A stretch of DNA of 64,000 nt from Bacteroidia bacterium (GTDB lineage: Bacteria; Bacteroidota; Bacteroidia; SpSt-205), in the NCBI GenBank assembly GCA_026003215.1, contig BPGV01000001.1, forward strand, positions 1,765,729 through 1,829,728, read 5' to 3'. The position numbers and the translations under genes are program-made. The notes below the pieces were generated by a model. That model searched no databases. It was not told the DNA's origin and saw nothing but the letters and a program-made list of their open reading frames with translations. The stretch's first letter is position 1. Each line of letters starts with the position of its first letter. Below, in pieces: positions 1 through 50,451 of this stretch.

Positions 1-3000
1 GTGCATGCCTGTCCGGGGGGAAGCTGTGCCACCTGGCCACGAGGGTGCATGTATGCCACGCTTTATTATCAGGCTCCCGGTGGGGTGCCACAAGTGCTTG
101 ACTCGTGTACATTGGGGGGGTTGGCGAATGCCCTTTATTGCAATCAGCCTATTTCGTGTAGGGGGGGGACAGCCTATTCGTATGATGTGGTAGGGGGGCG
201 GCCCTTTTTCTGGCTGTCACCGTGTCCAGCGCCAGGCCGATACTGGGGAATCCCCTACTGGATAGGAGTAGGAAATGTAGGTAGCGGTACAGTGGTAGAA
301 GTAGTGGATACGCGCGTGGCTTGGCAGGGCTCCCTGCCAGGGAGCGCGTGTGGCGGCGATACCGTACGCCTGTGTGCGGTCATAGGTGGGGTAAGCTATC
401 TTTCTACCTATACCTGGACGATAGGCGGGCAGAGTTTTACTTTGCCGGCGCCGGCTCCGCAAGGGGGAGACAGTGCTGTCGTATGTACTACTCTCACTAT
501 GCCTCCTACGGGCGATCTCACTGTGTCCCTTTCCCTTACGTATAACTCCACGCTCATTTGTCCGGGGTGTTGCACGGCCCCAGCCTTCCGAGATGGGAGC
601 ACCTGCAGCAGTTGCTTCTCTGTGAGTCATACTATTCGGCAAGCGACCAGGGTATGCACCCTTACGGCGGCTCCCGATAGCGTCTGCGTCGGAACGCAGC
701 CTGTGGTCTTTTCTCTGCAAGGAGGAAACTGCGCTTTCCCAGCGGACGTAGTGTATCTCTGGCAACCCGGTGATGGCCAGACTTACAGCACCGCTACGCC
801 TACCTTTTCTTATACTTATGGGGCGGCTGGCACCTATACAGCCCAAGTATGGGCGTGTCCACCGGGTACTACCACTCCTAATCCTTCTTGCTACTGCCAA
901 GCCAGCAGGACTGTGCGGGTTATTTCTCCTGTGTGTGCGCTTAGCGCTACGCCTGATACCGTCTGTGCAGGCCGGCAGCCCGTGACCTTTACCCTGCAGC
1001 TCAGTAGGTGTCCCGCCCCTACTGGCACCGTCTACTTCTGGCAGCCGGGGGATGGCCAGACCTACAATACGGGTACATCTGCTTCCTTTTCTTATACGTA
1101 TGGAATGGCGGGGACCTATACCGTGCAAGCATGGGCATGTCCGCCGGGTACTCCTGCTCCTAATGCTTCTTGTTACTGCCAAGCCAGCACGACCGTGCAC
1201 GTGGTGACGCCTCCCCAAGTGACCCTTCAAGGGGTCTCCTACATGTGCTGGGATACTACCCCGCGCCGCTTCGTCGTGAGTGGCTGGCAGCCAGGCGACC
1301 AGATTCTCTGGCAGCTCTTCTGTGGAGGGGGCAGCCCTACCTATACCCTAAACTACGACACCCTTACCGTACTTAACTGGGGGGGAAGCACATCTTGTAT
1401 CGTACAAGCTACCGTCCAGCGAGGGCCCTGTGTGGTCACCGTGCGTCGCACCGTCGCTAAAGGCACCCTCAACCTCGCTATCCAGGGAACCTCCCCCACT
1501 ACCTGCCGCCCAGGAGAATATTGGGTGATAGGGGTTCCCCCAGCTACCCAGGTTACTTGGATTGTGCCTGCTGGCGTATCCTACACCTTAGGCGGAACAA
1601 ACCCCGCTAATCCGCTCCTCCTGGTGCAAGGATGGGGCCCTTATACGGGTCAGGCGGTCCGTATATGCGCAGTGGTGACCGGCCTCTGGGGCTGTAGCGA
1701 TACCGTCTGCTTAGATATAGCCGCCTGCTGCGGAGATCCCGCTGCGCCTACTACCCTTATTAGACCTACCCGTGTAAGCAGCCTCCTCCAAAGCGACCCG
1801 CAGGCCTTCCAGTGCAAGACGTATTACGTAAATGACACCCTCTATGTGGATAAAGCCGTCACCTGGCTAAATGTGCAGATGTACTTCGGGCCGTATGGGC
1901 TGGTGTGGGTAGAGCCGGGCGTAGAGCTTACTATACGCACTGAGCGCGGGGGTTGCGATTGCGCCAGGGGCGGCCCTTACTGGAGCCGCTTAGAGCCCTG
2001 CCAGAAGCGCTGGCCCGGCATCTACGCGCAGGCGGGCTCCCGCGTGCGCATAGAAGGGGAGGTGAATGGCTCCCCGCAATGGTTCCCGGTGTGGGTCATC
2101 GGTGCAGATACCGGCGTGTGGGCGGAGGGCCGGGCTTACTGGCGCGTCTCTGGCGCTGTATTCAACCGCTGTGGCGTAGGGCTTTTCTGGAAGGCTCGCT
2201 CCGGGGAAGAGACCGTTCTTAGCGCCTGCATCCTCAAAAATGCTCTCTTTACGTGGGTAGATAGCGTCTGGGTACAGGGCAATCCCTCCTCCTGCTTCTA
2301 TGTAGATATGGGCACGCGGCGGCGGTGGAATCTCACTCGTCCGCCTATCAGCGTAGATCCCCTCACCAAGCGCGTGCAGGCTACCGTAGGCGTGTGGGTG
2401 CGCAGCGGCGATAGCCTTTCTATACAAGACGATCAAGTCATTTTCCGCGGCCTGCATTACGGGATTGTAGGAGAAGGCGCCACCATAGAAGCTATCAAAC
2501 CGCGGTATGAACGGCTGGATGGCGAAAGCTGCCTCATCGTGCGCAGCGACTCGCTCCGAGCGCAGCTCGGCGTGCGCCAGCTCTCCCTCCCCGGCAAAAC
2601 GCCCATCATAGAATGCCCGCAGCCCTTCGATTGTCCCCCCGGTACAGGCGTCTGCTCCCAGTGGATAGAAATGGATTTCCGCCGCTTCCTACGCATAAGG
2701 GAGAGCCAGTTTGATACCGTCTATGTAGGGGTTCAGGCAGTAGGGAGATATGGCTTAAGCTTCTCCTTGGCGGAGGTAGGGCAGAATACCTTTAGGCAAG
2801 GGAGTGTCGCTATCCTCCTCTCTGATATTGGGAATAGAGGGGTAAGCAACCGGTCCTTTTCTTTGTCGATTACTCAGAATGTTATTTCTCAGTATAGTCG
2901 GGGCATAGTCCTTATGCGTAGTGCTAATGTAGATGGCGCTATTGCAAATAACCAAATCCTTATTACGCCGCGCAGCTCCCTGGAGGGTATCTGGATAAGT

Positions 3001-4539
3001 GAGCGCTCCATATATCTCAAGCCGCTACCGACCCTCACTATCCAGGGCAATCTTCTCTCTGGGTACCGCACAGGTATTTTAGCCAGTGCCTCCGATGGCC
3101 CTATCTACATCAAGCAAAATCAAATCATCACGCCGGCCTTTGTGGGCGCCAGTGGTGTCGCCCTCCAGAAGCCTACCAGTCCCCTCCTCTATCAGCTCTG
3201 CCAGAATACCCTGATAGGGGCGAGCCTCCCCGCCCTCCCTATCTGCGATGTACGCAACCCCGCAGCTATCCGTAGCCTGGACTTTAACGCCATCCAGCTC
3301 CAAGTGTACTGCAATACCTCTCAGGGGTACCGCTGGGGCTACCACTTTAGAGACCGGGTCTCTGCTACCCCCCCCGTGGACTTCCGGCGGAATACCCTCA
3401 ATCACGAGCTGCACTTCTTTTATGAAGGGAATAGAGGAGTGTTGAAGATAGGCGACTCCACCGTCGCCTCGGGAAGCATCTATCTCCCGGCCGCGCCGAA
3501 GCCGACGGTATGGGTGGGAGGAGATATAATCTCTAAGATAGAAGTATTTGAGCAGCGTCCGGGCGTGAGCATTCAAGTACGAGATAGTAGCTGCAAGTTG
3601 GGAGCATATTCTTTTGTTGTGAGGCGGGCGCCGGCGCTGTGTGTGGGCGTGGCCCGAGGGCTGTGTGGCACGGTACCCCTCTTCCCGCCGGGGCCTCCTC
3701 GGCCTGATACCAGCCGCAGCGCGCGCCGAGCCTATGCCCGCTGGGCTACCTTCCGCGAGCTGGTCAAGACCCCCGACACCACCTGGCGGCAGGATAGCGC
3801 CACCTGGGCTTTCTTCCAGCAGGTGGAGGCTTCGCCGATGGGGCAGTTAGAGCTGGCCTACCATAGCTACCGCGCCGGCGACCCCACGGCCCTCTCCCTC
3901 AGCCAAGTCCTCCCCACCACCCAGCCCATGGAAGAGGCCTTCCAGACTGCGCTCGGCCTCATAGACAAAGCCGAGCGTACCTTCTTGGATGCTGCCGATG
4001 TGGCTACCCTCTGGCAGATAGCGTATGGCTGCCCCGACTCGGTCGGCCCCGCCGCCTACTTAGCGCAGGAGCTTCTGCGCTGGCTGGGCGCCGACACCGT
4101 CTTTTTACCCAGCCCGTGTAGCGCAAACGAAGCCTCTCGCCTCGCCCCCCCCGACTCCCAAGAAGTAGCAGAAGGCGAGCTGCGCGAGCCGCATAAACCC
4201 TACCTCTTTGAGCGGGTTCCCTACCGCCCCATAGAGGAGCGCCGTCCTACTACCCCTAACCCCTTAGATACCACGGGCCCAGGCCCCCGTCCCATGTACC
4301 TCCACCTCCTGCCTAACCCGGCCGAGCTCTCCGTAACCATTTACTATGGCGAGCTGCCGGAGGCAGAGGGTCTCTTGGAGATATATGATTCGCAGGGGCG
4401 ACGGGTCTTTTGGCGGGAGATTGAAGGCCGGGAGGGGTATCAGCGGCTCAATGTAGTGCATTGGAGCCGGGGCATTTACCAAGTGATTCTACGCAGTGGG
4501 CGAGCGGTACGCCGGGAGAATCTCTGGATATATCCATGA
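1..4539 (+). CDS. Large secreted protein (5' truncated by window edge): PKD-like repeats, beta-helix-like middle, T9SS type A sorting domain
   Basis: Open frame from window start; tandem PKD-like units (YLWQPGDGQTYS..FSYTYGAAGTYT / YFWQPGDGQTYN..FSYTYGMAGTYT); C-term LHLLPNPAELSVTIYYGELPEAEGLLEIYDSQGRRVFWREI..GIYQVILRSG. Confidence 0.8.
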   Translation: MHACPGGSCATWPRGCMYATLYYQAPGGVPQVLDSCTLGGLANALYCNQPISCRGGTAYSYDVVGGRPFFWLSPCPAPGRYWGIPYWIGVGNVGSGTVVEVVDTRVAWQGSLPGSACGGDTVRLCAVIGGVSYLSTYTWTIGGQSFTLPAPAPQGGDSAVVCTTLTMPPTGDLTVSLSLTYNSTLICPGCCTAPAFRDGSTCSSCFSVSHTIRQATRVCTLTAAPDSVCVGTQPVVFSLQGGNCAFPADVVYLWQPGDGQTYSTATPTFSYTYGAAGTYTAQVWACPPGTTTPNPSCYCQASRTVRVISPVCALSATPDTVCAGRQPVTFTLQLSRCPAPTGTVYFWQPGDGQTYNTGTSASFSYTYGMAGTYTVQAWACPPGTPAPNASCYCQASTTVHVVTPPQVTLQGVSYMCWDTTPRRFVVSGWQPGDQILWQLFCGGGSPTYTLNYDTLTVLNWGGSTSCIVQATVQRGPCVVTVRRTVAKGTLNLAIQGTSPTTCRPGEYWVIGVPPATQVTWIVPAGVSYTLGGTNPANPLLLVQGWGPYTGQAVRICAVVTGLWGCSDTVCLDIAACCGDPAAPTTLIRPTRVSSLLQSDPQAFQCKTYYVNDTLYVDKAVTWLNVQMYFGPYGLVWVEPGVELTIRTERGGCDCARGGPYWSRLEPCQKRWPGIYAQAGSRVRIEGEVNGSPQWFPVWVIGADTGVWAEGRAYWRVSGAVFNRCGVGLFWKARSGEETVLSACILKNALFTWVDSVWVQGNPSSCFYVDMGTRRRWNLTRPPISVDPLTKRVQATVGVWVRSGDSLSIQDDQVIFRGLHYGIVGEGATIEAIKPRYERLDGESCLIVRSDSLRAQLGVRQLSLPGKTPIIECPQPFDCPPGTGVCSQWIEMDFRRFLRIRESQFDTVYVGVQAVGRYGLSFSLAEVGQNTFRQGSVAILLSDIGNRGVSNRSFSLSITQNVISQYSRGIVLMRSANVDGAIANNQILITPRSSLEGIWISERSIYLKPLPTLTIQGNLLSGYRTGILASASDGPIYIKQNQIITPAFVGASGVALQKPTSPLLYQLCQNTLIGASLPALPICDVRNPAAIRSLDFNAIQLQVYCNTSQGYRWGYHFRDRVSATPPVDFRRNTLNHELHFFYEGNRGVLKIGDSTVASGSIYLPAAPKPTVWVGGDIISKIEVFEQRPGVSIQVRDSSCKLGAYSFVVRRAPALCVGVARGLCGTVPLFPPGPPRPDTSRSARRAYARWATFRELVKTPDTTWRQDSATWAFFQQVEASPMGQLELAYHSYRAGDPTALSLSQVLPTTQPMEEAFQTALGLIDKAERTFLDAADVATLWQIAYGCPDSVGPAAYLAQELLRWLGADTVFLPSPCSANEASRLAPPDSQEVAEGELREPHKPYLFERVPYRPIEERRPTTPNPLDTTGPGPRPMYLHLLPNPAELSVTIYYGELPEAEGLLEIYDSQGRRVFWREIEGREGYQRLNVVHWSRGIYQVILRSGRAVRRENLWIYP

Positions 4540-7500
4540 GGGGGCTAAGGGTTTGTTTGGGGAGGGGGGCTTTGGCCCTCCTCCTGCCCCTTTGGGGGCA
4601 GCGGGTGTATCCGCTGCATGGGGATTTGGTGGTGAATGGGGGTTTTGAGGACCAGATGGAGATAGTGGGGCGGTGTACGGTGGAGGTGCCGACGCATACG
4701 GGGGCGAGGGCGCGGCTTTTTTATCCGGCGTTTACGCCGCGCTATAGCTCTTTGGGGGTGGTGCCGTATATGTGGGATTATCGGTATTTTCCGTCGTATT
4801 TTGGGCGTGGGGTGTCGGAGGGTAGGCGAGACCTGCCGTATCGGCGGGTGCGCGGCCCTGACTCTTCTTTGCCGTATTTGCCGTTGCGGTATGCTTTTCC
4901 GCGGTGTCATGAGATTGGAGGTCAGCTTGGGGTGGTACCTCAGGAGGATAGCACGGCGTGGAATGCGCCGGATACGTTGTGGGTGAGTTCGTCGGCGGGG
5001 GGTGTAGAGCCGGGGTGGGGGGCGTGGGATACTTTGGCGGCGGAGCGGGTGGAGGGGTCTTTTTTGCTGCCGGTGCGGCACTGGTCTGGGCGAGGGCTCC
5101 AGTGGGGGGTGACTCGACGCACCCTCCAAGGGCTTTTGCACTTTGCGCCGTATTGGGTCAGCACCGTAGGGCATCCCCAGTTTTTCTTTTATCCCGAATA
5201 TCCCCAACCTATTTTGTCCAACTGGCGGTTCTGGAGATATGGGCATCTGACTTTGTTGTCCGATAGGAGCGGTTTTTCTACGTTTGTGCCAAGTTTATTT
5301 GATTCTATTTTCATACAACAAGATGTGCATTGCTGTAGAATAAATGTTGGGACGGTTTCGGTTCAGCGCCATGGATATGATTGGATAGATTATTATAAGT
5401 TTTCTACGATTATGCGTTTTGGGCAGTTGGGTTGGCGGTATGGGTATCCCGATCCACGGTGGAGCATGGATACGGTGGAGCGGTGGTGGGTGTTCTTGGT
5501 ACCGGCTGATTACTATCGGCGGAGCTGGCTGCGGGGCAAGTCGCATGTGCTGTATCGGTATTTTCACTTGAATCCCTTCAATGGGGTGTATATGTCGGTA
5601 TATGGGCTTTTGGGGGGGCGACGGCTTTTTCCGCATCTGGCGCGGTGGGGGGAGGCGCCGGAGGATAGGGAGGAAGTGCCGGAAGGAATATCTATGGGGT
5701 TTGAGATTTTTAAGGATACCTCCTACAAGTTGATGCCATGGACTTTTTCTACGCTATTTTATGCAGCATTCAATCGGTCGGTGTGGTATCCATCGGAAGA
5801 GGATGGCGGTTCTTTTTTGGTGAATAACCTTGTGCCTCCGGTGGATAACTATAGTTCATCATCAGTGGACGGTGTATTGGAGGCTTTTTGGCGGCGGGGT
5901 GAGCCGTGGGGATGGATGGATAGGCGGGGGGTGTGGCGGTATGGGGCGCCGTGGTATGTGCAGCGGGCTGGTACGTATGGGGTATTGTGGGAGATGGGGA
6001 ATGTGCTGTGGTTTCCGCCGGTGCGTGCGCTGGGGGGCATGCCGATGAATAGGCCGCTGTGGCATCATCGTCGGCTTGGGGCGGGTATAGGTGTGGTGAA
6101 GGCATCGCCGCAGTGGCATCGGCTGGGGATAGAAGCGGTGAAGGTGGGGGGTCCGTGTGGGGAGCTGGCTCCGTATCGTGGGGAGGGGTATATTACGATA
6201 AGCTATCCGGTGCGGTATTTTCATGGGTTTAGGGGTTCGGAGGGGTATCGGGCTTGGCTGCGTGGGGTGGACAGGCGGTATGGGATAGGGGAGGGTTTAG
6301 CGCGGGAGCTGTGGTATTATGGGGGATGGTTAGCGTACGATAGTGTAGAGCAGTATTATAGGGGTGTGCGTAGGTATGCGGATAGTGTGTGGAGGGCTGC
6401 GTGGGATAGTGCGGTATCGTGGGCCGGGGTTCGGTGTGGTTCGCCGGTGTTTTTGACGGATCCTTTTATGTGGGCGCTGTGGGAGGGGAATAGGGCGTGG
6501 GTAGAGGAGATGTATCGGGATTTTCGGTGGCCTGAGGTGGGGCGGGATAGTTTGCGGGGGGCGATGGTTCGTTGTTGTGGGGTTTTATGGAATGGGCGAG
6601 GGGAGGAAGGGGGGGTGAAGGAGTTTCGGTATGATAGTGGGTGGGGTTTGCGGGTGGCGTGGGTGTATGGACCGATGCAGAAGGTGCTACCTACGGGGCG
6701 GGGTTGTCCGGACACGGCGCGGTTGGTGGGGTGGGGATTAGATCCGGAGTGTAGTGAGTACACGTATTGTGTGGGGAGGTGTCCAGAGGCTGTGATAGGT
6801 CCGAGTGGCGGGGATAGTGCTGCGGTGGAGAATGAGGCGGTGCAGGTAGCGGGCTACTATCGGTGGGTAGGACGGAAGCAGATATACCACAACTATTTAG
6901 GGCTATTTCCTGATAGTATTTGGGGGGTACCGCGAGATTTGTTGTCTCCGTTTTATGTGTATAGGCCTATTTATGAGGTGGTATCTGGGCAGGTTATACG
7001 GCGAGTACCACCTCAGGAGCGGGAGTGGCTGGGCTATGCAACTCTAGGGTTTGTGCGTCCTGACCATTATTTTGGGGATTATTTTGATCGCCCTGCTGAT
7101 ACGGTTTCTCGGTTGCCTCTATCTTATCCAGAGAGAACCGTAAACTGGGCTCGTACGGCGACGGGTACGGATGTGTGGTGGCGGGGGTATCGTATAGGGG
7201 AGCGAGGGTGCTATGTGAGTTTGAATCATGGACCGGTGGAGAGCTGTTGTGGGGGTTGGGGGAATAAGGTGAATAGGGCGTATGCGGTGATGGGGTATTT
7301 GAAGGAGCCGTTAGAGGCGGGGAAGCGGTATCGGGTGCGGCTGGCGGTGGCAGTACCGCGTCGGAGTGTGTATGTGATACACAATGTGGGGGTGGTGGTG
7401 AGTACGGAGCCCTTTCCGAATGTGTATCCGTACTGTCGTGGGGGGTATGTAGCGGAGAATAGCATATCGTGGGAGAGTCCAGAGTATTTGAGCAAGGCGC

Positions 7501-8582
7501 GGTGGAGCTGGTGGGAGAATAGCACGGTGAGGCTGGATACGGCTATTGGGCGGTGGGTAGTGTTGGAGGGGACGTTGGTGGCGTTGGGTGGGGAGCGGTT
7601 TATTTATGTGGGATGGCTGGATAGTACGCGTTTAGATACGCAGTTTATAGGGTTTGATGAGGATAGGTACTGGCTGAATGGGGTGAGCACGTGTGGGGCG
7701 GGTTTAGTGTCGGATAGTTTGTGGGAGCGGTGGTATGGGGGTAGTAGGGTGAGTCGGGGTTTAGGGTATATGGAGTGGTGGGTGAATGGGGGGGATGGGG
7801 GTTTGCATGTGGATGAGGTTGGGTTATGGGATGATGAGGTGGGTAGTAGTGGGGAGGGGGAATGTGTAGTGTGGGATGGGGTATGTGGGGGGTTAGGGCG
7901 AGGGGAGGTGCGTATGCGTGGGGGAGTGCCTCCGTATGATTGTTTGTGGTATCGGGATGGGCGGCGGGTAGGGGAGGGATGTCGGCAGGAGGGGTTAGTG
8001 GGGGGGTGGTATCAGGTGGTGGTGGTAGATAGTGCGGGGCGTGAGTGGCGGGGGTGGGTGGAGGTACGGGTGTATGATACGCTTTGGGTGAGTGTAGATA
8101 CGGTATGGGATGTGGAGGATAGGCCTGGGGGCGCTGTGGTGCGTGTGGGGGGCGGTGCTCCTCCTTATGTGATAGAGTGGGTAGGGACTGGGCAGGTAGG
8201 GGATACGTTATGGGCGTGGGCGGAGGGGCGGTATGTAGCGGTGGTGCGGGATAGTGTAGGGTGTGAGAAGCGGGTGGAGGTGGAGGTGAGGGGGAGGAAT
8301 GCGGTATGGGTGCCGAGTGCATTTAGTCCGAATGGGGATGGGGTGAATGACGAGGTATGGCCGGTGGTGCGGTATGAAGGTCGTGTGAGGGATATGCGGT
8401 GGGTGGTGTATGATAGGTGGGGTAAGGTAGTGTATGAGGGGCGTGGGGTAGGGAGCCGCTGGGATGGTCGGTACAAGGGGGAGGCGGTACCGGAGGATGT
8501 GTATGTGGTGTATGTGTGGGTGTGGTTTGAGGGGCGGAATGCGCCTGTGGAGTACAAGGGCACGATAACGGTGGTACGATGA
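4536..8582 (+). CDS. Large secreted protein with gliding-motility-associated (T9SS type B / CHU_C-like) C-terminal domain
   Basis: ATGA overlap with upstream stop; C-term VPSAFSPNGDGVNDEVWPVV..WVVYDRWGKVVYEGRGVGSRWDGRYKGEAVPEDVYVVYVWV..KGTITVVR. Confidence 0.85.
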   Translation: MRGLRVCLGRGALALLLPLWGQRVYPLHGDLVVNGGFEDQMEIVGRCTVEVPTHTGARARLFYPAFTPRYSSLGVVPYMWDYRYFPSYFGRGVSEGRRDLPYRRVRGPDSSLPYLPLRYAFPRCHEIGGQLGVVPQEDSTAWNAPDTLWVSSSAGGVEPGWGAWDTLAAERVEGSFLLPVRHWSGRGLQWGVTRRTLQGLLHFAPYWVSTVGHPQFFFYPEYPQPILSNWRFWRYGHLTLLSDRSGFSTFVPSLFDSIFIQQDVHCCRINVGTVSVQRHGYDWIDYYKFSTIMRFGQLGWRYGYPDPRWSMDTVERWWVFLVPADYYRRSWLRGKSHVLYRYFHLNPFNGVYMSVYGLLGGRRLFPHLARWGEAPEDREEVPEGISMGFEIFKDTSYKLMPWTFSTLFYAAFNRSVWYPSEEDGGSFLVNNLVPPVDNYSSSSVDGVLEAFWRRGEPWGWMDRRGVWRYGAPWYVQRAGTYGVLWEMGNVLWFPPVRALGGMPMNRPLWHHRRLGAGIGVVKASPQWHRLGIEAVKVGGPCGELAPYRGEGYITISYPVRYFHGFRGSEGYRAWLRGVDRRYGIGEGLARELWYYGGWLAYDSVEQYYRGVRRYADSVWRAAWDSAVSWAGVRCGSPVFLTDPFMWALWEGNRAWVEEMYRDFRWPEVGRDSLRGAMVRCCGVLWNGRGEEGGVKEFRYDSGWGLRVAWVYGPMQKVLPTGRGCPDTARLVGWGLDPECSEYTYCVGRCPEAVIGPSGGDSAAVENEAVQVAGYYRWVGRKQIYHNYLGLFPDSIWGVPRDLLSPFYVYRPIYEVVSGQVIRRVPPQEREWLGYATLGFVRPDHYFGDYFDRPADTVSRLPLSYPERTVNWARTATGTDVWWRGYRIGERGCYVSLNHGPVESCCGGWGNKVNRAYAVMGYLKEPLEAGKRYRVRLAVAVPRRSVYVIHNVGVVVSTEPFPNVYPYCRGGYVAENSISWESPEYLSKARWSWWENSTVRLDTAIGRWVVLEGTLVALGGERFIYVGWLDSTRLDTQFIGFDEDRYWLNGVSTCGAGLVSDSLWERWYGGSRVSRGLGYMEWWVNGGDGGLHVDEVGLWDDEVGSSGEGECVVWDGVCGGLGRGEVRMRGGVPPYDCLWYRDGRRVGEGCRQEGLVGGWYQVVVVDSAGREWRGWVEVRVYDTLWVSVDTVWDVEDRPGGAVVRVGGGAPPYVIEWVGTGQVGDTLWAWAEGRYVAVVRDSVGCEKRVEVEVRGRNAVWVPSAFSPNGDGVNDEVWPVVRYEGRVRDMRWVVYDRWGKVVYEGRGVGSRWDGRYKGEAVPEDVYVVYVWVWFEGRNAPVEYKGTITVVR

Positions 8583-11519
8583 ATGAAGAAAAAACGTATT
8601 TTAGCCGAAACTTTCAAGCGTATGCGATACGATAGATGGCTTGCGGGAATAGCTCTCCTTTTGGGAGGGCTGGTATGGGGGCAAGTGACGCCTTGGCCCC
8701 TCAGTAAATGGCAGCTATACGCGGTACAGAATGGCCAGCCGACGGGCGCGCCTTTGCCGGAACGCAGCCTGGTGTATTTCCTCGACACCTTCGCGTCGGT
8801 AGTGGATACGATGGGCATGGCGGCAGCCGGCATCACGAGCTGGCGCTGGACGGTATTTCCCCTTTGGAATGCTATGGGTTTCAACCCTACTTTTTCCACG
8901 GCTGAAACTCTGATATTTACCCCCAGCATCCAGAGTGCGTATCCAAACCCTCCCCCCGTGGTAGTAGCGCTCCAGGTGACAGGTCCAGCAGGCGATACGG
9001 CCCAAAGCTATCGTCTCCTCCAGCTGCGGCGTAACTGGGGTGGAGTAGGGGATATCTATTTCTGGGCATGCCCTGGTGGTGAAGCCTATATCCCCATCAG
9101 CATGACTACGACCGATGTGGATTCCATCAAGGTATGGGTAGAGCGGGGCGGCGTGAGATACGACTCTATCACTGTGACGCATCCGACAGTATGGCGTTTC
9201 TCGGTGCCGGTGGTGACGGATACCTACGATGTGATAGGTATAAAATACTTGCGGGGACGCCCCTGGGCGCCTGAGGGTCCCTATCTTCAAGCCACTCTGT
9301 ATGTACAGCCAAGACATCCTTTTGTAGGGGGAGCGTGTGTGCTCCAGCCGATGGGGGCTTACTGCGTGGGCGATCCGGTAGAGCTGTATGTGGATTTGTA
9401 CGGGGAGCTACGGGCGCAGGTAGGGTGGGACTTTGACGGGAATGGCACCGTGGATGCTACGGGTCCCATAGGACGGACGACCTTCTCGGCGCCGGGGACT
9501 TATACGATACAAGCTTATGTGAGTTGGTTGCCGGGGTGTAGGGAGACCCTCCAGACGGGTGTCACCATAGAGCCGACCGCAGCCCTTACAGCTCCGGCTA
9601 TTTTGGGGCCGTCTACTTATGTGTTGGGCCAGCCCGTACAGCTGCGCTTAGGAGGAGTGCGGGGCACGGTATATGTGGATTGGCTGGATGACGGCCAGTG
9701 GGAGGGAATAGCTATCGGGGGGACGGGCTTCCAGCGCACTACGCCTTCTTATACGCTGAGTGCGCCTCCGCCGGCGGGGGGCTATCCGGTGCGAGTGCGC
9801 CAAGTGCTCTGTGGCAGTAGCCGCGAAGATGTGCTCTACTGGAGTCCTACACTCTCCTCTACGCTGACCCCTGATGGGGTTATCCTCTTGAAGAAGAGGC
9901 CCTTCTGTGTGGGAGACTCGGTGGTTTTGGCGGTACAACCTTCTGCTAACTTTTCCCCGGGCCAAGCTGGGTACTTGGTTGCCTGGAACTTTGGCGGGGG
10001 CTGGACAGCGCCTTCAGTCACTGCGGCAGAGACGGTCTTCACGTGGAACGGCCAGCCCCTTGCGGTGCGCGCTCAGCTCTACCACCCCAGTGGGGGCAAT
10101 CGGATTATTGGTCCGCTTTCGGTAACGGCTTTGGCACGGTGGGGAGGTATCAATCGCTTCACCGATATTGATTTTGCTCCTGGGGGATGTACTGCGGACT
10201 GGTGTCCTACCTATTGGGTATGGGGGGATGTCTTGTGTGGGGGTAGGAATGTGCGGATTAGCTTGACGACGCAGCCCCAAGGGCGCTCGTGGCGGTGGCG
10301 CCTCCTCCTGCCTACCGATACGTTGAGCTGGCCGGCTGACTCTGTACCTTCTACCTATACATATACCTTGCCCATGACGCCCGGGGTATATACCATAGAA
10401 AGCCAGTTAGAGACGCCGTGTGGGCTATGGCAGGAAGTGTGGGCCTTCCGAGTGGAAAATACCGGTACGGGACGGCCCGGCGCAGTAATGTACACCCAGA
10501 CAACTTGCAACTATTGGTATACCACCTCCCCTGAAGTCAAATTGGTGGTTTGTGCTCGGGAGCAAGTGTATGTATACGACTATGACGCGAGAGAGTACGG
10601 TGGCGGCGGGATAGAAGAGCTGCGGATAGTCTATGCCAATGGCCAGCCGGTAGAAACGGCACCCACGGGCGGAGGTATTTCTTTTGTGGCTCCAGCCCAG
10701 CCCGGCTCCTATACGGTGTACCTCCTTTGGCGCTCCTGCGGCGGACGAGAAGATACCTTGACCTACCGCTTAGAAGTGAAGGAAAGCCAAGCCCCTTACT
10801 TTACAGCGCCACGAATGGCGTGTGTAGGACAGCCCGTGACCTTCCACCGGGAAGGACCGACCCCCCTCCAAGGTCATCCCGCTTGGCTCCAGTGGGACTT
10901 CGGCGATGGTACGCTCCTCTCGGATACCGCCACTGTCCTTACGCATACCTATAGCCAGCCGGGGTATTATACCGTCAAGCTGGATGGAGTAAATCCTGCC
11001 TGCGGACGAAGGAGCTTTTCGCGACAGATACATGTGGCGAGCAGCGTGCCCACGCCGACGATACTCTCTGCCTCCTTAGTAAATGGGGTGCTCACTTTTG
11101 CAGGCGAGGCCCCAGGAGCGGATAGCGTGGTCTGGCACTTTGGCGATGGGAATATTGCGGTAGGCGTGCTCGCAGGCACGCACACCTATGCAGGGAATGG
11201 CCCCTATACCGTCCATCTCTATGCCTACAATGGTTGCGGGGTGGATACGGCGCAAGTGGTGGTCACCACCTTAGCCCAGCAGACACCGGCAGGGTGGCGC
11301 CTGTATCCCAATCCCGCTACCCAAGAGCTTTATGTAGAAGCCCCAGCAGGGAGCTTTGGCGAGGTGGCCTTTTACACCGTCACAGGTCAGCTCATACGGC
11401 GCTATTTGCTTGCGCAGGGGGCAGCCACGCTCGCCGTGGGCGATCTGCCACGGGGCTTGTATATCGTACAGCTCCGCTCGGCGCAAGGGCTCTCCTATGC
11501 GCGGGTAGTCTTGGAGTAA
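8583..11519 (+). CDS. Secreted PKD-domain protein with T9SS type A sorting domain
   Basis: PKD motifs (VGWDFDGNGTVDATG, LQWDFGDGTLLSDTATVLTHTYSQPGYYTVKL, VVWHFGDGNIAVG); C-term LYPNPATQELYVEAPAGSFGEVAFYTVTGQLIRRY..GLYIVQLRSAQGLSYARVVLE. Confidence 0.85.
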   Translation: MKKKRILAETFKRMRYDRWLAGIALLLGGLVWGQVTPWPLSKWQLYAVQNGQPTGAPLPERSLVYFLDTFASVVDTMGMAAAGITSWRWTVFPLWNAMGFNPTFSTAETLIFTPSIQSAYPNPPPVVVALQVTGPAGDTAQSYRLLQLRRNWGGVGDIYFWACPGGEAYIPISMTTTDVDSIKVWVERGGVRYDSITVTHPTVWRFSVPVVTDTYDVIGIKYLRGRPWAPEGPYLQATLYVQPRHPFVGGACVLQPMGAYCVGDPVELYVDLYGELRAQVGWDFDGNGTVDATGPIGRTTFSAPGTYTIQAYVSWLPGCRETLQTGVTIEPTAALTAPAILGPSTYVLGQPVQLRLGGVRGTVYVDWLDDGQWEGIAIGGTGFQRTTPSYTLSAPPPAGGYPVRVRQVLCGSSREDVLYWSPTLSSTLTPDGVILLKKRPFCVGDSVVLAVQPSANFSPGQAGYLVAWNFGGGWTAPSVTAAETVFTWNGQPLAVRAQLYHPSGGNRIIGPLSVTALARWGGINRFTDIDFAPGGCTADWCPTYWVWGDVLCGGRNVRISLTTQPQGRSWRWRLLLPTDTLSWPADSVPSTYTYTLPMTPGVYTIESQLETPCGLWQEVWAFRVENTGTGRPGAVMYTQTTCNYWYTTSPEVKLVVCAREQVYVYDYDAREYGGGGIEELRIVYANGQPVETAPTGGGISFVAPAQPGSYTVYLLWRSCGGREDTLTYRLEVKESQAPYFTAPRMACVGQPVTFHREGPTPLQGHPAWLQWDFGDGTLLSDTATVLTHTYSQPGYYTVKLDGVNPACGRRSFSRQIHVASSVPTPTILSASLVNGVLTFAGEAPGADSVVWHFGDGNIAVGVLAGTHTYAGNGPYTVHLYAYNGCGVDTAQVVVTTLAQQTPAGWRLYPNPATQELYVEAPAGSFGEVAFYTVTGQLIRRYLLAQGAATLAVGDLPRGLYIVQLRSAQGLSYARVVLE

Positions 11520-19986: not shown

Positions 19987-22900
19987 ATGAATAAAAAGGG
20001 CATCAGCGGCGAAATAGAGCGCTATCTGGAGGAGATAGCTAAGCTCACTCAGCGGGGGGATGCTCGGGAGGAGAGTTACTATGACCTCCTCAAAAAACTC
20101 ATAGAGGCGTTCGCTCGGGCCCAGGGTAAAACCATTGAGGTTACGGTACTGCCTAAGCCCACAGATGCGGGAAATCCTGACTTTCGGGTATGGGACGGCC
20201 GACATCAGGTGATTGGCTACATAGAGGCTAAGGCCCCTCACCAAAACCTTGACCGCATAGCGGACTCGCCTCAGCTCCGGCGGTATCGCGCGACTTTTCC
20301 TAATCTCATCCTTACGAACTTTTACGAGTTTCGGTTGTATCGGGAAGGGCAAGCGCTAAGGGGGGCTATGCTGGCGCGTTCGTTTATCCCGCAGCAGCTA
20401 AAAACCCAACCGCCTGCCGAGCAAATGCAGGCGCTGGAGCAGCTCTTCGAGACTTTCTTTTCTTTCGTTCTCCCGCATTACCTGACTCCGCAAGCCCTTT
20501 CGAGAGAACTTGCGCGGCGCACGCGTTTCCTGCGCGACGAAGTCATTCGGCCGGAACTGGCCGAGCAGATCAAGCACGGGCAGGGTGACCTCTATGGCTT
20601 TTACGATGCCTTCCGCAAGTACCTAATCGCTAACCTCTCCCTCGAGCAGTTTGCCGACCTCTACGCCCAGACCCTCACGTATGGGCTATTTGCTGCCCGT
20701 ACCCGTACCCCAGGCTCTTTTAGTCGGCGCGAGGCCTTTGACCTTATCCCCCCCACTATCGGCATCCTACGCGACGTTTTCCAGTTCATCTCGCTTGGCA
20801 AACCCTCTCGCCAGATGGAGGTCATTGTGGACGAGATTGCCGCTGTCCTGAATGCCGCTGAAGTCCAAGCCATCCTCGAGCAGTACTACAAACAAGGCAA
20901 GGGCGATGACCCCATCCTGCACTTTTACGAGACCTTCTTGGCCGAATACGACCCTGAAACGCGTGAGCGACGCGGCGTCTATTATACACCGCAGCCGGTG
21001 GTGCGCTATATCGTGCGCGCCGTCCATGAATTGCTCAAAACCCGCTTTGGGCTCGCCGATGGACTGGCCGATCCTTCTGTGACGCTATTAGACCCGGCCG
21101 CCGGCACGCTTACCTTCCCGGCTGAGGCCATCCGTGTGGCTTTTGCAGAATTCACCGCCAAATATGGCACGGGTGGAAAGGAAAACTTCCTGCGCCGGCA
21201 CATCCTGCCCCACTTTTACGCCTTTGAACTGCTAATGGCCCCCTATGCTATCGGTCACATGAAGATAGGCTTCCTGCTTGAAGCGCTCGGCGTGCCGCTC
21301 CAAGAGGGGGAACGCTTCCAATCCTACCTGACCAACGCACTGGAAATGGAAGATTTACAACAAATCCAAATCCCCGGCTTGGCTTCGCTTTCCGAAGAAA
21401 GCCACCAGGCCGCCCGCGTCAAGAAGGAGGAGCCAATCCTGGTCATCCTGGGCAACCCCCCCTATTCCGGCATTTCGGCCAATCAGAACGACTGGACGGA
21501 GCAACTCCTGAAGACCGACCTGGATGGCGCCCAGAGTTACTACACGGTGGATGGTCAGCCGCTCGGCGAGAAAAATCCCAAGTGGCTGCAGGACGACTAC
21601 GTCAAGTTCCTACGGTTTGCGCAGTGGAAGGTTCACAAGGCGGGTCGCGGTATCGTCGCTATGATTACCAACCACGGCTACCTGGATAACCCTACCTTCC
21701 GCGGCATGCGCCAGAGCCTGCTCAGGACCTTTGACGAAATCTACATCCTTGACCTGCACGGCAATAGTCTGAAGCGGGAAACCGCCCCCGACGGCCGCCC
21801 AGATGAGAACGTCTTTGACATTCGCCAGGGAGTAGCCATTGCCTTCTTCATCCGCCACGGCTACCCTGAAAAGCGCGGCGTCTATCACGCCGACCTCTAC
21901 GGCCGACGCGAAGAGAAATACGACTGGCTGGAAACCCACGACCTGACCACCACTGGTTACCAGCCTATCCAGCCAACCTCGCCCTATTACCTCTTCGTGC
22001 CGCGTAGCACCCCCAACCTGCAGACTTACCTCTCCTGGCTGCGCATCAACGAGATTTTCCCCGTCAACAGCGTGGGCATCGTCACCGCAAGGGATAAACT
22101 CACTATTCACTGGACATCCAATGAAGCCTGGACGACGGTTCTCAACTTTAGTCGCATGGATGAAGAGCTGGCTCGGCAGGCGTACCAGTTGGGCAAGGAT
22201 GCGCGCGACTGGAAAGTCTCGCTGGCGCAACAGGACCTGCGGCACAACGGCGGTCCTCACCGAGAGAAGATTGTACCGATCCTGTATCGCCCCTTTGATA
22301 TTCGCTACACCTATTATACGGGTCGCTCACGCGGTTTCCACTGCATGCCCCGCCCCGAAGTCATGTCCCACATGCTGGCGGGGAAGAATATGGCATTGGT
22401 AACTACGCGCCAGGTCAAAGCAAGCCAAACCTGGCAACACTGCTTCGTAGCCAGTCAAATCACGGAGTCTTGTGTGATTTCCAATCAAACCAGCGAAATC
22501 GGTTATGTGTTTCCCCTCTATCGCTACCCCTCCGATATGTTACATACCGACAAACAGCCTAACTTGGCCAAGGAGGTGCTGCCCAAGCTGGCCGAGGTCT
22601 ATGGCTTCCCCCCCACGCCAGAGGAGGTACTGGCCTATATTTACGCTGTCTTTTATAGCCCCACCTACCGCCAGCGATACGCCCAGGAGCTACGTACGGA
22701 CTTTCCCCGCGTGCCCTTTACGGCGGATCCCGAGGTCTTCCGTCAAATGGCGACGCTGGGGCAGCGCTTGATAGACCTGCACCTGCTACGCAGCCCGGAG
22801 CTGGATCTGCCGCAGGTCAAATACCAGGGCAGCGGGGAGGACCGTATCCGCATTGTGCGGTACGAGGCCGGTCAGAAGCGCGTCTATATCAACGCCGACA

Positions 22901-23127
22901 AGTATTTTGAGGGCATCACGCCGGAGATGTGGGCATACCAGATTGGCGGCTATCAGGTGCTGGAAAAATACCTGAAAGACCGCAAGGGACGCTCCCTGGA
23001 TGACCCGGTGCACTATATCCGCATTGCCACCGCCATTGCCCACACCATAACCCTCCAGGCGGAGATAGACCAGCTTTATCCTATGGTAGAGGCTGAGCTC
23101 CTGCTATGGAAGACAAAACAGAGTTAG
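19987..23127 (+). CDS. Single-chain restriction-modification protein: PD-(D/E)xK-like N-terminus, N6-adenine methyltransferase core, target-recognition-like C-terminus
   Basis: NPDFRVWDGRHQVIGYIEAKAP (D..ExK pattern); RRGVYYTPQPVVRYIVRAVHELL; LLDPAAGTLTFPAEAI (motif I-like); VILGNPPYSG (motif IV). Confidence 0.85.
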   Translation: MNKKGISGEIERYLEEIAKLTQRGDAREESYYDLLKKLIEAFARAQGKTIEVTVLPKPTDAGNPDFRVWDGRHQVIGYIEAKAPHQNLDRIADSPQLRRYRATFPNLILTNFYEFRLYREGQALRGAMLARSFIPQQLKTQPPAEQMQALEQLFETFFSFVLPHYLTPQALSRELARRTRFLRDEVIRPELAEQIKHGQGDLYGFYDAFRKYLIANLSLEQFADLYAQTLTYGLFAARTRTPGSFSRREAFDLIPPTIGILRDVFQFISLGKPSRQMEVIVDEIAAVLNAAEVQAILEQYYKQGKGDDPILHFYETFLAEYDPETRERRGVYYTPQPVVRYIVRAVHELLKTRFGLADGLADPSVTLLDPAAGTLTFPAEAIRVAFAEFTAKYGTGGKENFLRRHILPHFYAFELLMAPYAIGHMKIGFLLEALGVPLQEGERFQSYLTNALEMEDLQQIQIPGLASLSEESHQAARVKKEEPILVILGNPPYSGISANQNDWTEQLLKTDLDGAQSYYTVDGQPLGEKNPKWLQDDYVKFLRFAQWKVHKAGRGIVAMITNHGYLDNPTFRGMRQSLLRTFDEIYILDLHGNSLKRETAPDGRPDENVFDIRQGVAIAFFIRHGYPEKRGVYHADLYGRREEKYDWLETHDLTTTGYQPIQPTSPYYLFVPRSTPNLQTYLSWLRINEIFPVNSVGIVTARDKLTIHWTSNEAWTTVLNFSRMDEELARQAYQLGKDARDWKVSLAQQDLRHNGGPHREKIVPILYRPFDIRYTYYTGRSRGFHCMPRPEVMSHMLAGKNMALVTTRQVKASQTWQHCFVASQITESCVISNQTSEIGYVFPLYRYPSDMLHTDKQPNLAKEVLPKLAEVYGFPPTPEEVLAYIYAVFYSPTYRQRYAQELRTDFPRVPFTADPEVFRQMATLGQRLIDLHLLRSPELDLPQVKYQGSGEDRIRIVRYEAGQKRVYINADKYFEGITPEMWAYQIGGYQVLEKYLKDRKGRSLDDPVHYIRIATAIAHTITLQAEIDQLYPMVEAELLLWKTKQS

Positions 23128-29109: not shown

Positions 29110-30522
29110 GTGCTTACCCGCTCTCTCCTTATAGTCCTTGCCATAGGCTTAGGCGTAGGCAGCTTCGCTGTACAAGAACCGTTGGCTCGGGCAGCCACCC
29201 AGATTACTGCGGTGGTGGCATTTTATACCTTTTTTTATGCCCCTGCCCGTGGCTTATTGTATGCTTTTGGGTATGGGTTAGCAGTGACGGGAGTGTTTCT
29301 CTTTGTAAGCGGCAAGAGCTGGTTAGAAATATTTGCAGGTTGGGAGCTGGTGAGCGTGGGCGCATGGGCCCTGATTGTGGGGGCACGCGGAGTAAGCCGG
29401 CGTAGCTTAGAGGCAGCCTTTATCGCCTTTATTGTCAATCGGGTAGGGGATGTGTTTTGGCTTATGGCGGCTTCGGGGGCCGAGGCTTTCCCTGAAGGCT
29501 TCTGGATAGCGGGGTTGGTGAAAGCGGGGATTTTTCCTTTTACCTTCTGGCTGGTGCAGGCTATGTATGCGCCTGCGCCCGTGTCGGCGCTTTTGCATTC
29601 TGCCCTGCTGGTGGCCTTAGGGGTATATGGGCCGCTGCGCTATCCTGAGTGGCGAGTGGGCTTTGATGCAGGGGCGCAAAAAGCAGCTGAGCTACTCGCT
29701 GTGTGTGCAGGGATAGGGGCGGTAGGGAGCCGTTCCCCGAAGGTAGCCTTGGCCTGGACGACGGCGGCCCACTTAGCGGGAGTAGTGGCTCTGTGGCCTC
29801 AACCGGAGCAAGCCCAGCAGGCCCTCTTACACCACAGCTACCTCAAGGCCGCGCTTTTTCTCCTCCTGGGATGGGTGCAAAGGCAGGGTTATCTCACCCT
29901 TTGGGAAGCTGGCCTGGCAGCGGTTCTCGCTGGGCTCCTTGTTGCTGGCGCGCACACCGGCTCCCCTCTATTGGCTATTGCTGAGGGACTCAACGCTCTC
30001 GCCTTAGGACGGCTATGGGGACGCTTTTCCCTTCGTCGCAAAGGTGCAGCAGCTGACCCATATAGGGGGCTAAGTGCGCCGTTGTTTTTAGCTGTGTTCT
30101 GCTTGGCAGAAGGATACTTGCGCTTTTCTGTGCCCGAAGCTTTTATTTTTCTACCGCTCGGTATAGTGGGGGTCTGGCTCGCCAAAGTGCAGCTGTATTG
30201 GCGGTTAGATAGGCCTTTTCTCCTCTTGACCCAAGATACCTTGCATGCCTGGCTCACTTGGGTCCGCTATTGGGCAGGTATGGAAGTCTTTTTAGGGCGG
30301 GTATTCGTTCGGGTGGCCCAGCGGTGGATACGGCTTGCGTACCTTAGCGGCTTGACAGAGGTAGCTATGACGCATAGAGGCTGGCGGGCTATGGCTCGTC
30401 GGGCGCGCGGGGCCTTGGCGGTCTTCACCGCCCCGAATGAACCCCTTACCTATGCGCAAGCCCTACGTTGGGGCTTCCTTCTCACGCTCATGACAGCGAT
30501 TGTATGGCGGTTTTTGCGCTAA
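29110..30522 (+). CDS. NuoL-like proton-translocating antiporter subunit, unusually short (470 aa)
   Basis: FAGWELVSVGAWALIV, GLVKAGIFPFTFWLVQAMYAPAPVSALLHSALLVALGVY, LLHHSYLKAALFLLLGWV. Confidence 0.8.
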   Translation: MLTRSLLIVLAIGLGVGSFAVQEPLARAATQITAVVAFYTFFYAPARGLLYAFGYGLAVTGVFLFVSGKSWLEIFAGWELVSVGAWALIVGARGVSRRSLEAAFIAFIVNRVGDVFWLMAASGAEAFPEGFWIAGLVKAGIFPFTFWLVQAMYAPAPVSALLHSALLVALGVYGPLRYPEWRVGFDAGAQKAAELLAVCAGIGAVGSRSPKVALAWTTAAHLAGVVALWPQPEQAQQALLHHSYLKAALFLLLGWVQRQGYLTLWEAGLAAVLAGLLVAGAHTGSPLLAIAEGLNALALGRLWGRFSLRRKGAAADPYRGLSAPLFLAVFCLAEGYLRFSVPEAFIFLPLGIVGVWLAKVQLYWRLDRPFLLLTQDTLHAWLTWVRYWAGMEVFLGRVFVRVAQRWIRLAYLSGLTEVAMTHRGWRAMARRARGALAVFTAPNEPLTYAQALRWGFLLTLMTAIVWRFLR

Positions 30523-31895
30523 ATCTCCTTTGGTTGGGGCCCCTGGCTATAGGCTTTTTGTCGCTCTTCTTAGGGCGGCGTGCCTTGTGGGGGCTGGTGG
30601 TGGGTAGTGGCTTTGGACACCTCCTCCTGTGGGGCTATCTCTACCTTACCTACCATGCCCAAGGACCGGTACAGGTGTTGCCGTGGTTCAGCTTAGGGGG
30701 GAAGCCGCTCTTCTATGCCATAGGGCTGAGCCCGCAGAACGCCTGGCTGGTATTTCTCGCTATTTTTTTGGGGCATGCTGCCTTATTTTATGCGGTGGCG
30801 CAGATAGCTCGGCCCAGAGCGTTTAGCTTTTTGGTATTTCTCGTGATGGCTTTTTCGCAGGGGGTGTTTCTGGCGCGGGATGTGGTGCTGTTTTTTGTGT
30901 TTTACGAGGCTTCGCTGGTGCCGGCGTTTTTGCTTATTTATGGGTGGGGGGGACGACAGCGGCGAGCCGCGGCGGTCAAGTTTGCCCTCTTTACGCTGGG
31001 AGGGTCGGTGGTGCTGCTGATTGGGCTACTGTGGGGGCTCATGGGACGCGCTTCGGGTTTGTGGGAGGAATGGCGGGGTATGGCCCTCCCGATGGGGGCC
31101 TGGTGGCTGATGACGATAGGTCTGGCTGTCAAGCTGCCCCTTATCCCGCTACATAACTGGCTGGGCGAAGCCCATGTAGAAGCCGACACCCCAGTCTCTA
31201 TACTTTTAGCGGGGCTCCTCCTCAAGCTGGGCGGGTATGCGCTCCTGAGCTGGGTCTGGATCAATGGACCTTCTGGACTTTTGGTGGGTTGGGGGGGACT
31301 CTCCTTAGTATATGCGGCGGCTGTGGCTACCGCCCAAAAGGACCTCAAAAAGCTCATTGCTTTTACTTCTATTGGGCACATGGCTTTGGTCGCCATAGGG
31401 GCAGGTGCGGGCAGCTCCACCGCCTTGCAGGGCGCTTATCACCAGCTTTTTACCCATGGCTTGGTAAGCGCAGCTCTTTTTGCCTGGGTGGGCTACATAG
31501 AAAAAGCCACAGGGAGCCGGCACATCGGTTACTTGCGTGGGGTACTCAAAGGAGTAGGCTTTCAGCAACTCTTGCCTGTGGTGTTGTTTTTTGCGGCGAT
31601 AGGCGTGCCGGGTACGGCCCTTTTTGTGTCAGAGGTGCTTGTCGTATTAGGCACAGGGGCCGGCATAGGATGGACATGGGCATGGGTGCCGGCGTTGAGC
31701 TTACCGCTCACAGGCATATACTTTTTGCGGGCTTATCGGGAGCTGGCTCAGCCTACTCCTGAACAGGTGCCGCTACCCGAAGCCCACCTCTTTGCGCCGC
31801 AGCTTGCCGTGATAGGGGTACTGCTTCTGGGGATTTTGCTTGCAGGGATTTTCCCTCGGCCCTGGCTAACCGTGCTTTCCTATGTGGGGCCTTGA
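30504..31895 (+). CDS. nuoM: NADH-quinone oxidoreductase subunit M
   Basis: FFVFYEASLVPAFLLIYGWGG, AVKLPLIPLHNWLGEAHVEADTPVSILLAGLLLKLGGYALL, LKKLIAFTSIGHMALVAIG; start placed at MAVFAL. Confidence 0.9.
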   Translation: MAVFALNLLWLGPLAIGFLSLFLGRRALWGLVVGSGFGHLLLWGYLYLTYHAQGPVQVLPWFSLGGKPLFYAIGLSPQNAWLVFLAIFLGHAALFYAVAQIARPRAFSFLVFLVMAFSQGVFLARDVVLFFVFYEASLVPAFLLIYGWGGRQRRAAAVKFALFTLGGSVVLLIGLLWGLMGRASGLWEEWRGMALPMGAWWLMTIGLAVKLPLIPLHNWLGEAHVEADTPVSILLAGLLLKLGGYALLSWVWINGPSGLLVGWGGLSLVYAAAVATAQKDLKKLIAFTSIGHMALVAIGAGAGSSTALQGAYHQLFTHGLVSAALFAWVGYIEKATGSRHIGYLRGVLKGVGFQQLLPVVLFFAAIGVPGTALFVSEVLVVLGTGAGIGWTWAWVPALSLPLTGIYFLRAYRELAQPTPEQVPLPEAHLFAPQLAVIGVLLLGILLAGIFPRPWLTVLSYVGP

Positions 31896-33099
31896 GCGGC
31901 TCTGGCCCGAACTGGGACTGATAGCGGCCGCCTTAGCGTATAGGTATCGCTTCCTAAGCAGCTTAGCCTTGGCCTTGTATGCGGGGGGTATTCTTTGGCA
32001 GGAGCAAGCCGAAACCCTTCTCCTGCGCTTTTCCCCCGAAGCAACGCTTTTTTGGGCCGTAGCCGTAGCCCTTACCCTCATCGCCCGGATGATAACGCCC
32101 CCTTCCTTAGGTGGGGCCTGGGCGTTAGTGCTCTTGCTGGGCTCCTACGGACTTCTTTTGCGCAGTACCCACCTGCTTTTTAGCTGGGCTTGCTTGGAGA
32201 GTGCCGCACTCAGTGGGTATTTTTTCGTGGTAGCGATGGGGCGGGAACCCCTGCAGTGGAGTGCAGCTATTCGGTACTTCACTTGGAGTGTTTTAGGATC
32301 GGCGCTTATTCTCATGGGTATAGCGGTTCGGCTGGTCCAGCACCTTCCCCTCTCGTATCCCATAGAGTCGGGGGGATTTTTGGCCGATGGTTGTCTCTTT
32401 TGGGGGTGGGCTATAAAGGTAGGTCTGATTCCGTGGCATTTTTGGCTTTTGGGGGTGTATCGGGCGCTGCCCACAGTCTGGGCAGCGTGGTACGCGGCTA
32501 TACCCAAAGGGGCCTTACTGCTTAATCTCCTGAGCCTCCTCCCCACAGAAGGCAAGGGCCCTCTGCCGTTTATTTTTCTCGTCTTGGGGATGGTGAGCTT
32601 AGGCGCCGGCTATGCCCGCGCCTGGTCAGCGCCTACCCCGATAGAGAAACTCTTCTGGGGCAGCTTCTCCCAAGCAGGCTACATGGTATTGGTTCTTGCG
32701 CCGGGGGCTCAAGCCGCAGGCTGGAACTTTTGGCTGGTCTATGCCGGGGCCAGCTTTCTGGCATTTTTGTATGCTGCACACCCTTGGCGCGGACGCATAG
32801 GAGATGCTGTCGGCCTCCTCTTACTGGCTAATCTGGCCGGCCTTCCTCCAGTATTAGGCTTCTGGGTGAAGCTGGCTCTTTTTGTAGAAGCTTTCATACG
32901 CTTTGAGGGGCTCTTGCGTATTTTTCTTATAGGAGTGGGGCTTGTAGCTACCATAGCGGGGTTTGCGATATATGGACGGGTGGCGTGGGCACTGTGGCAA
33001 GGGCCTTCGGCAGCGGTCTCGTGGGGAAGAAAGGTTTTATATGGGGTAGGGGCAGGAAGCCTTTTGGTGCTGGGGATTGTGGGGCTACGCTGGAGCTAA
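31882..33099 (+). CDS. nuoN: NADH-quinone oxidoreductase subunit N-like protein
   Basis: Follows nuoM; WACLESAALSGYFFVVA..AAIRYFTWSVLGSALILMGIA, WAIKVGLIPWHFWLLGVYRALPTVWAAWYAAIPKGALLLNLL, LANLAGLPPVLGFWVKLALF. Confidence 0.82.
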   Translation: MWGLERLWPELGLIAAALAYRYRFLSSLALALYAGGILWQEQAETLLLRFSPEATLFWAVAVALTLIARMITPPSLGGAWALVLLLGSYGLLLRSTHLLFSWACLESAALSGYFFVVAMGREPLQWSAAIRYFTWSVLGSALILMGIAVRLVQHLPLSYPIESGGFLADGCLFWGWAIKVGLIPWHFWLLGVYRALPTVWAAWYAAIPKGALLLNLLSLLPTEGKGPLPFIFLVLGMVSLGAGYARAWSAPTPIEKLFWGSFSQAGYMVLVLAPGAQAAGWNFWLVYAGASFLAFLYAAHPWRGRIGDAVGLLLLANLAGLPPVLGFWVKLALFVEAFIRFEGLLRIFLIGVGLVATIAGFAIYGRVAWALWQGPSAAVSWGRKVLYGVGAGSLLVLGIVGLRWS

Positions 33100-46919: not shown

Positions 46920-47159
46920 ATGTGGTTAGAGACAGCGAGTACGATTCAGTATTTAGGCGCTGCGATTGGAGCAGGCCTTGCCGCGATTGGCGCCGGAATA
47001 GGCATTGGTACGTTAGCCTCTGCTGCCCTGCAAGGGATAGCGCGTCAACCTTCTGCTGCCGGTGACATCCGTAACAACATGATCCTCACAGCAGCACTCA
47101 TAGAAGGGGTCGCGTTGATTGCCGAAGTGGTGGCCATCTTGGTTATCTTCCTCAAGTAA
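46920..47159 (+). CDS. atpE: F0F1 ATP synthase subunit c
   Basis: GAAIGAGLAAIGAGIGIGTLASAALQGIARQPSAAGDIRNNMILTAALIEGVALIAEVVAILVIFLK. Confidence 0.95.
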   Translation: MWLETASTIQYLGAAIGAGLAAIGAGIGIGTLASAALQGIARQPSAAGDIRNNMILTAALIEGVALIAEVVAILVIFLK

Positions 47160-47183
47160 GTCAGGCGTATTTACCGTATCTTG

Positions 47184-47214
47184 CGCCGCTCACTCCGGTG
47201 AGCGGCGTATTTTT
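47184..47214 (+). terminator. Rho-independent terminator after atpE
   Basis: cgccgctcac-tccg-gtgagcggcg perfect 10-bp stem (47184-47193/47198-47207), 4-nt loop, then tattttt. Confidence 0.85.
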
Positions 47215-47215
47215 G
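47208..47215 (+). promoter_or_regulatory. TAnnTTTG element upstream of mlaD-like gene, overlapping terminator T-tract
   Basis: TATTTTTG tgtcaccc ATG. Confidence 0.5.
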
Positions 47216-47223
47216 TGTCACCC

Positions 47224-49309: not shown

Positions 49310-49315
49310 AACCCC

Positions 49316-49323
49316 TATCTTTG
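49316..49323 (+). promoter_or_regulatory. TAnnTTTG element upstream of bTHX gene
   Basis: TATCTTTG ccgcc ATG. Confidence 0.6.
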
Positions 49324-49328
49324 CCGCC

Positions 49329-50449: not shown

Positions 50450-50451
50450 GG

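Follow-up and report, generated by a model that had tools for sequence, protein, structure and literature searches.

The sign of an extreme composition skew in a putative T9SS type B cargo gene follows the replication strand

How does one gene of an operon come to be almost devoid of C at its third codon positions while the genes on either side of it have an ordinary, balanced composition? This question is raised by a locus in the window, by which we mean the whole 64,000-nucleotide stretch analysed here (1.766-1.830 Mb of a single-contig genome of 2.27 Mb), in which genes were called as the longest non-overlapping open reading frames and not taken from an annotation. The gene at issue, which we call gene B (4536..8582, plus strand), encodes a putative exported protein of 1348 amino acids that ends in a T9SS type B signal; the coding strand is rich in G, and its third positions are nearly C-free. 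The N-terminus of the protein is hydrophobic (LGRGALALLLPLWGQ, read from the sequence without a predictor) and its C-terminus (residues 1259-1344, positions 8310..8567, plus strand) matches the CHU_C / TIGR04131 type B sorting domain above both curated cut-offs (Pfam E = 1.2e-12; NCBIfam TIGR04131 E = 2.3e-11). On the strength of this domain, which it shares with T9SS type B cargo, the gene B product is a putative member of that class, and the T9SS part of its original label, T9SS adhesin, is correct. It departs from such cargo in that domain and structure searches returned no other recognised family domain and no relative of solved structure, and in that its composition is unlike that of most other CHU_C genes of the same genome.

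Gene B is flanked on the plus strand by gene A (1..4539, entering from upstream of the window), which encodes a PKD-domain T9SS cargo, and by gene C (8583..11519), which encodes a PKD-domain T9SS cargo of type A. The stop codon of gene A overlaps the gene B start as ATGA and gene C begins immediately past the gene B stop, a spacing which suggests that A-B-C is a tight, co-transcribed operon. The fourfold-site skews of genes A and C are -0.20 and +0.07, respectively, in agreement with the original description of the flanking T9SS genes as more balanced, and that of gene A is insensitive to replication strand. Elsewhere in the window we observed a Type ISP restriction-modification-like gene (19987-23127), with matches to the Type_ISP_C specificity domain and an N6 methylase, as well as three adjoining plus-strand genes (29110-33099) whose coding strands favour T over A (AT skew of about -0.3) with 36-40% T at second codon positions and which probably encode membrane proteins.

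The strong G-rich, C-poor shift first noticed in gene B is borne out by skew values, third-position counts and simulation. Over the whole gene, third positions are 0.54 G, 0.06 C (6.5%), 0.10 A and 0.30 T, whereas G and C make up 0.41 and 0.20 of first positions and 0.33 and 0.17 of second positions, so the depletion of C is strongest at third positions. GC skew in 1-kb intervals reaches 0.71, a measure on which none of 40 sequences simulated from the window with a first-order Markov model exceeded 0.23, and the local counts given originally (2 C in 7741-7860 and 34 G in 7741-7800) are exact. Gene B also contains a 92-nt run free of C (7807..7898, plus strand), whereas no such run exceeded 46 nt in the 40 simulations; across both strands of the genome (2,268,343 bp), all C-free runs of at least 64 nt are located within this one. 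In per-gene statistics, which come from a sample of stretches amounting to slightly less than half of the genome, gene B has the lowest third-position C content (C3) among 510 genes of at least 200 amino acids, and its fourfold skew of +0.85 exceeds that of the other 304 leading-strand genes sampled by 4.4 SD.

The limits of the shift coincide with those of the gene, as had been proposed, at one end only. The 3' change point at 8542 (interval 8532-8594) forms a sharp edge at the stop codon at 8582, but the 5' change point at 4345 (4324-4366) falls within gene A, approximately 190 nt ahead of the gene B ATG, and the end of gene A (4345..4535, plus strand) is already G-rich and C-poor. The skew is uneven along gene B, with milder patches on the plus strand at 5103..5402 (C3 of 0.10-0.30) and 6807..7100 (third-position G, or G3, of 0.30-0.47). 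At the protein level, gains of G, V and E and losses of P, T, L, A and H track the skew. Of the residues whose abundance had been attributed to composition, G and V thus conform; the richness in W and Y is common to the homologue in a congener (5.2% W and 5.0% Y) and is therefore a trait of the family.

To which replication strand does gene B belong? The GC skew of the genome switches sign near 0.25 and 1.45 Mb, and these switches, together with the co-orientation of ribosomal genes, place the terminus near 0.25 Mb and the origin near 1.45 Mb. Plus-strand genes from 1.45 Mb via the contig end to 0.25 Mb, gene B included, are thus leading-strand genes, and the S10/spc ribosomal cluster on the minus strand at 0.77 Mb is co-directional under this assignment. 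The dnaA gene (G000:C1:1135131-1135613, 1.135 Mb) is some 0.3 Mb away from the origin indicated by skew and does not mark a switch, so the origin is placed by skew and by the direction of the ribosomal genes; a 16S search gave no match in either the source genome or the congener. Typical fourfold skews average +0.02 for leading genes and -0.31 for lagging genes. Towards the end of the window (47119-63998), plus-strand genes exhibit lagging-type skew (-0.08 to -0.37) although the replichore makes them leading, while the minus-strand genes at 57132-58229 and 63336-63998 exhibit leading-type skew, and this region looks like a fairly recent local inversion. A recent inversion of the A-B-C operon itself was considered and rejected, since genes out to approximately 46 kb look normally leading or neutral.

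A first scan of named genomes using gene B alone yielded no match. Among 30 relatives, gene B is present in just one congener, Bacteroidia bacterium KatS3mg026 (contig BPGW01000002.1), and it occurs in 2 of the 11 genomes of the genus. KatS3mg026 possesses the entire A-B-C operon in identical order plus a second copy of gene C (L063:2473-5377), which is split across two frames, suggesting a frameshift or an assembly error. There the operon is encoded on the minus strand, and the plus strand of the contigs is rich in G and carries the ribosomal genes; contig skew and ribosomal gene orientation thus assign gene B to the lagging strand. In that genome the coding strand of gene B is rich in C (C3 of 0.56, G3 of 0.19): its C3 exceeds that of every other gene among the first 217 sampled, and its skew ranks third-lowest of 485. 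At 243 conserved fourfold sites, gene B here has G at 170 (70%) and C at 13 (5%), while its KatS3mg026 counterpart has C at 160 (66%) and G at 36 (15%), the commonest pairing being G here with C there (109 sites). Twofold sites go from T here to C there and from G to A, and the two classes of site together amount to a preference for G, else T, in one genome and for C, else A, in the other, near to a strand complement. First and second codon positions are also directional (208 C to G vs 33). In terms of DNA, the change in gene B comes close to complementarity, and it extends to amino-acid usage. Genes A and C show weak trends in the same direction, and all three genes have similar divergence between the two genomes. 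Across 139 reciprocal best hits, the difference in fourfold skew is largest in gene B (1.46) and amounts to 1.39 in TPR-CHAT genes; the strand effect is typically about 0.33, and same-strand pairs differ by only about -0.1. As a separate observation, several congener assemblies contain long poly-G/poly-T stretches (contigs of G003, G005 and G010), which are likely sequencing or assembly artefacts.

The original prediction also turned on whether many other genes of the genome look alike. They do not, but gene B is the extreme of a small class and not a singular case: of the 305 leading genes in the sample, 8 stand apart with skews of +0.5 to +0.9 and a gap from the main body. This group consists mostly of long genes for exported proteins, comprising gene B, an SprB-repeat/CHU_C gene, a beta-helix T9SS gene and TPR-CHAT genes. 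TPR-CHAT copies beyond this group, at 0.156 and 2.206 Mb, conform to the pattern, and extreme lagging genes reach -0.69 in the opposite direction. We also note a C-depleted cluster of secreted-protein genes (L024:6773-19499) encoding a CAP-domain protein, an SprB/CHU_C protein, a 2199-aa SprB protein and a beta-helix T9SS protein.

Skew in these families reverses with the strand. Six leading TPR-CHAT copies here range from +0.24 to +0.66 and two lagging copies in KatS3mg026 have skews of -0.60 and -0.72, with the preference between A and T reversed as well. In other congeners, TPR-CHAT copies that are apparently leading tend to exceed lagging copies in G; there the amplitude is smaller and the strand less certain. 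Six TPR-CHAT copies with putative signal peptides occupy five scattered loci (L132, L133, L134, L135 and L035), all leading, and five copies are mutually about 70-83% identical. A DUF7948-SBBP propeller gene runs the other way, at -0.42 on the lagging strand here and +0.55 on the leading strand in KatS3mg026, and SprB/CHU_C genes occupy the leading strand and are rich in G in both genomes (+0.88 and +0.45), which breaks the confounding of species with strand. Among the 485 genes sampled in KatS3mg026, the three lowest skews belong to two TPR-CHAT genes and gene B, and the propeller and SprB genes are among the highest; that identical families are extreme in both genomes indicates that strand sets the sign. 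At every extreme locus the sign of the skew agrees with the local replication strand. In gene B and in three unrelated families, it is thus the replication strand and not the coding strand that the sign follows.

The reading we prefer, with a probability of roughly 55%, is that an ordinary replication-strand mutation pressure, which makes the leading strand G/T-rich, comes through about fourfold more strongly in a small number of long genes for exported proteins. Under this reading, mutation asymmetry between the replication strands would set the sign; in long, lineage-restricted exported proteins, synonymous choice and much amino-acid choice may be weakly constrained, such that the sequence would come to lie near its mutational endpoint, and selection would damp the bias in ordinary genes while weakly constrained genes would record it. 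Chen and Chen (2007; PMC2031905) termed such an influence 'replication-associated pressure' and split asymmetry into replication and coding-direction components. Gene B shares with the asymmetry they describe a G/T excess on the leading strand (and a C/A-rich coding strand when lagging), a sign that flips with strand, a maximum at third positions and amino acids that follow suit. Replication-associated asymmetry is usually modest and chromosome-wide, however, whereas the replication component of gene B, with its two strands taken from two genomes, is 0.73 against 0.16 in ordinary genes here, and its operon partners are unaffected. The corresponding coding-direction components are +0.12 and -0.15, and a near-zero value such as that of gene B would be expected if codon preference were absent. 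Weak constraint fits this value, the amino-acid shift, and the long, exported and lineage-restricted character of the genes.

Several observations nonetheless argue against weak constraint in its simple form. Genes A and C share the operon, age, strand history and divergence of gene B and barely respond, and intergenic DNA, which should also lie near the mutational endpoint, is nearly balanced: its skew over the 9.4 kb sampled is +0.07 for the leading strand and +0.02 where the flanking genes converge. Better conserved segments of gene B are the more skewed ones (rho = 0.43 for G3, p = 0.018), and TPR-CHAT paralogues have a dN/dS of about 0.2, indicating that these proteins are not unconstrained. 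Across the 139 orthologue pairs, the correlation of identity with strand-adjusted skew is only weak (rho = -0.17, p = 0.046), and on these three grounds relaxed protein constraint is rejected as the sole cause. A smooth gradient of constraint does not predict the gap that sets off the eight extreme leading genes. Because the skew of its neighbours and of intergenic DNA on that strand is only weak, we describe gene B as driven by strand asymmetry and not as an ordinary instance of it, and the leap from a bias present everywhere to an approximately fourfold response in these genes is uncertain.

A more tentative alternative, which we consider possible but clearly less probable, is that a gene-specific process such as a locally different mutation spectrum or a self-reinforcing G-rich context amplifies the strand-set sign beyond what weak constraint allows. 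Certain genes may then gain asymmetry several-fold past that of the chromosome and their operon partners, with the direction given by the fork. The gap, the insensitivity of genes A and C, the near balance of intergenic DNA and the stronger skew of conserved gene B segments would all suit such an amplifier, as would a bleed of the skew 35-190 nt upstream at gene B and two TPR-CHAT copies. Yet the 3' boundary lies within tens of bases of the stop in gene B and several TPR-CHAT genes, which is odd for a process acting on DNA, synonymous divergence of gene B is no higher than that of genes A and C once composition is considered, and no such agent was found.

Selection for weakly structured mRNA, one of the causes originally put forward, is improbable. 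Since G without C and C without G would be equal solutions to this problem, with the chromosomal bias picking between them, it would account for both a gene-bounded amplitude and a reversible sign; gene B mRNA is indeed somewhat less structured than its neighbours (-31.4 vs -37.4 and -38.7 kcal/mol per 120 nt), and weak structure is also seen in the mRNA of lagging TPR-CHAT copies. However, minimum free energies lend it no support against codon-shuffled controls, relative to which the native sequences are not less structured (z = +1.4 for gene B and -3.0, that is, more structured, for TPR-CHAT). Moreover, the G-rich leading TPR-CHAT mRNA is at -39.0, like that of ordinary, balanced neighbour genes, and the excess of T over A in G-rich versions adds G-U pairing. 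Codon-shuffled expectations likewise led us to reject selection for G-runs (35 runs of five or more G in gene B vs 37.6 expected) and for G-quadruplexes (11 motifs vs 8.1 expected, SD 2.0).

Transcription-associated deamination of the non-template strand, also proposed originally, is very unlikely. In a heavily transcribed gene B it would agree with the depletion of C and the raised T of the coding strand here, but it predicts loss of C from the coding strand wherever the gene sits and is contradicted by the C-rich coding strand of the KatS3mg026 homologue on the other replication strand. In addition, the increase in G exceeds that in T, and the putatively co-transcribed genes A and C are balanced. 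The skew of leading-strand ribosomal genes is only mild, which speaks against deamination and also led us to reject high expression or codon adaptation as the explanation. The foreign origin that had been suggested, in the form of a recent horizontal transfer out of a compositionally different donor, is just as improbable: the restriction of gene B to two genomes of the genus favours it, but A-B-C is syntenic in the congener, its three genes have diverged to a similar extent, and the sign of the skew is concordant with the local replication strand at all extreme loci.

In the use of GC skew to read out gene inversion (PMC6220195), a difference in fork orientation between related genomes appears as opposite skew, as it does for gene B; here, by contrast, extreme skew has been re-established in one gene of an operon and hardly in its neighbours, which means that skew reports strand history non-uniformly. 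In our literature search, no publication describing such gene-specific extremes among T9SS genes came up, and this speaks weakly for novelty. The A-B-C operon of these two congeners constitutes a natural experiment in which the same genes in the same order lie on opposite strands and respond to a degree ranging from about zero (gene A) to near maximal (gene B). Strand bias is therefore read out very unevenly by different genes, which bears on the inference of inversion history and orientation from gene GC skew and on the recognition of foreign genes by composition, and the sensitivity of a gene to replication-strand mutation becomes a testable question.
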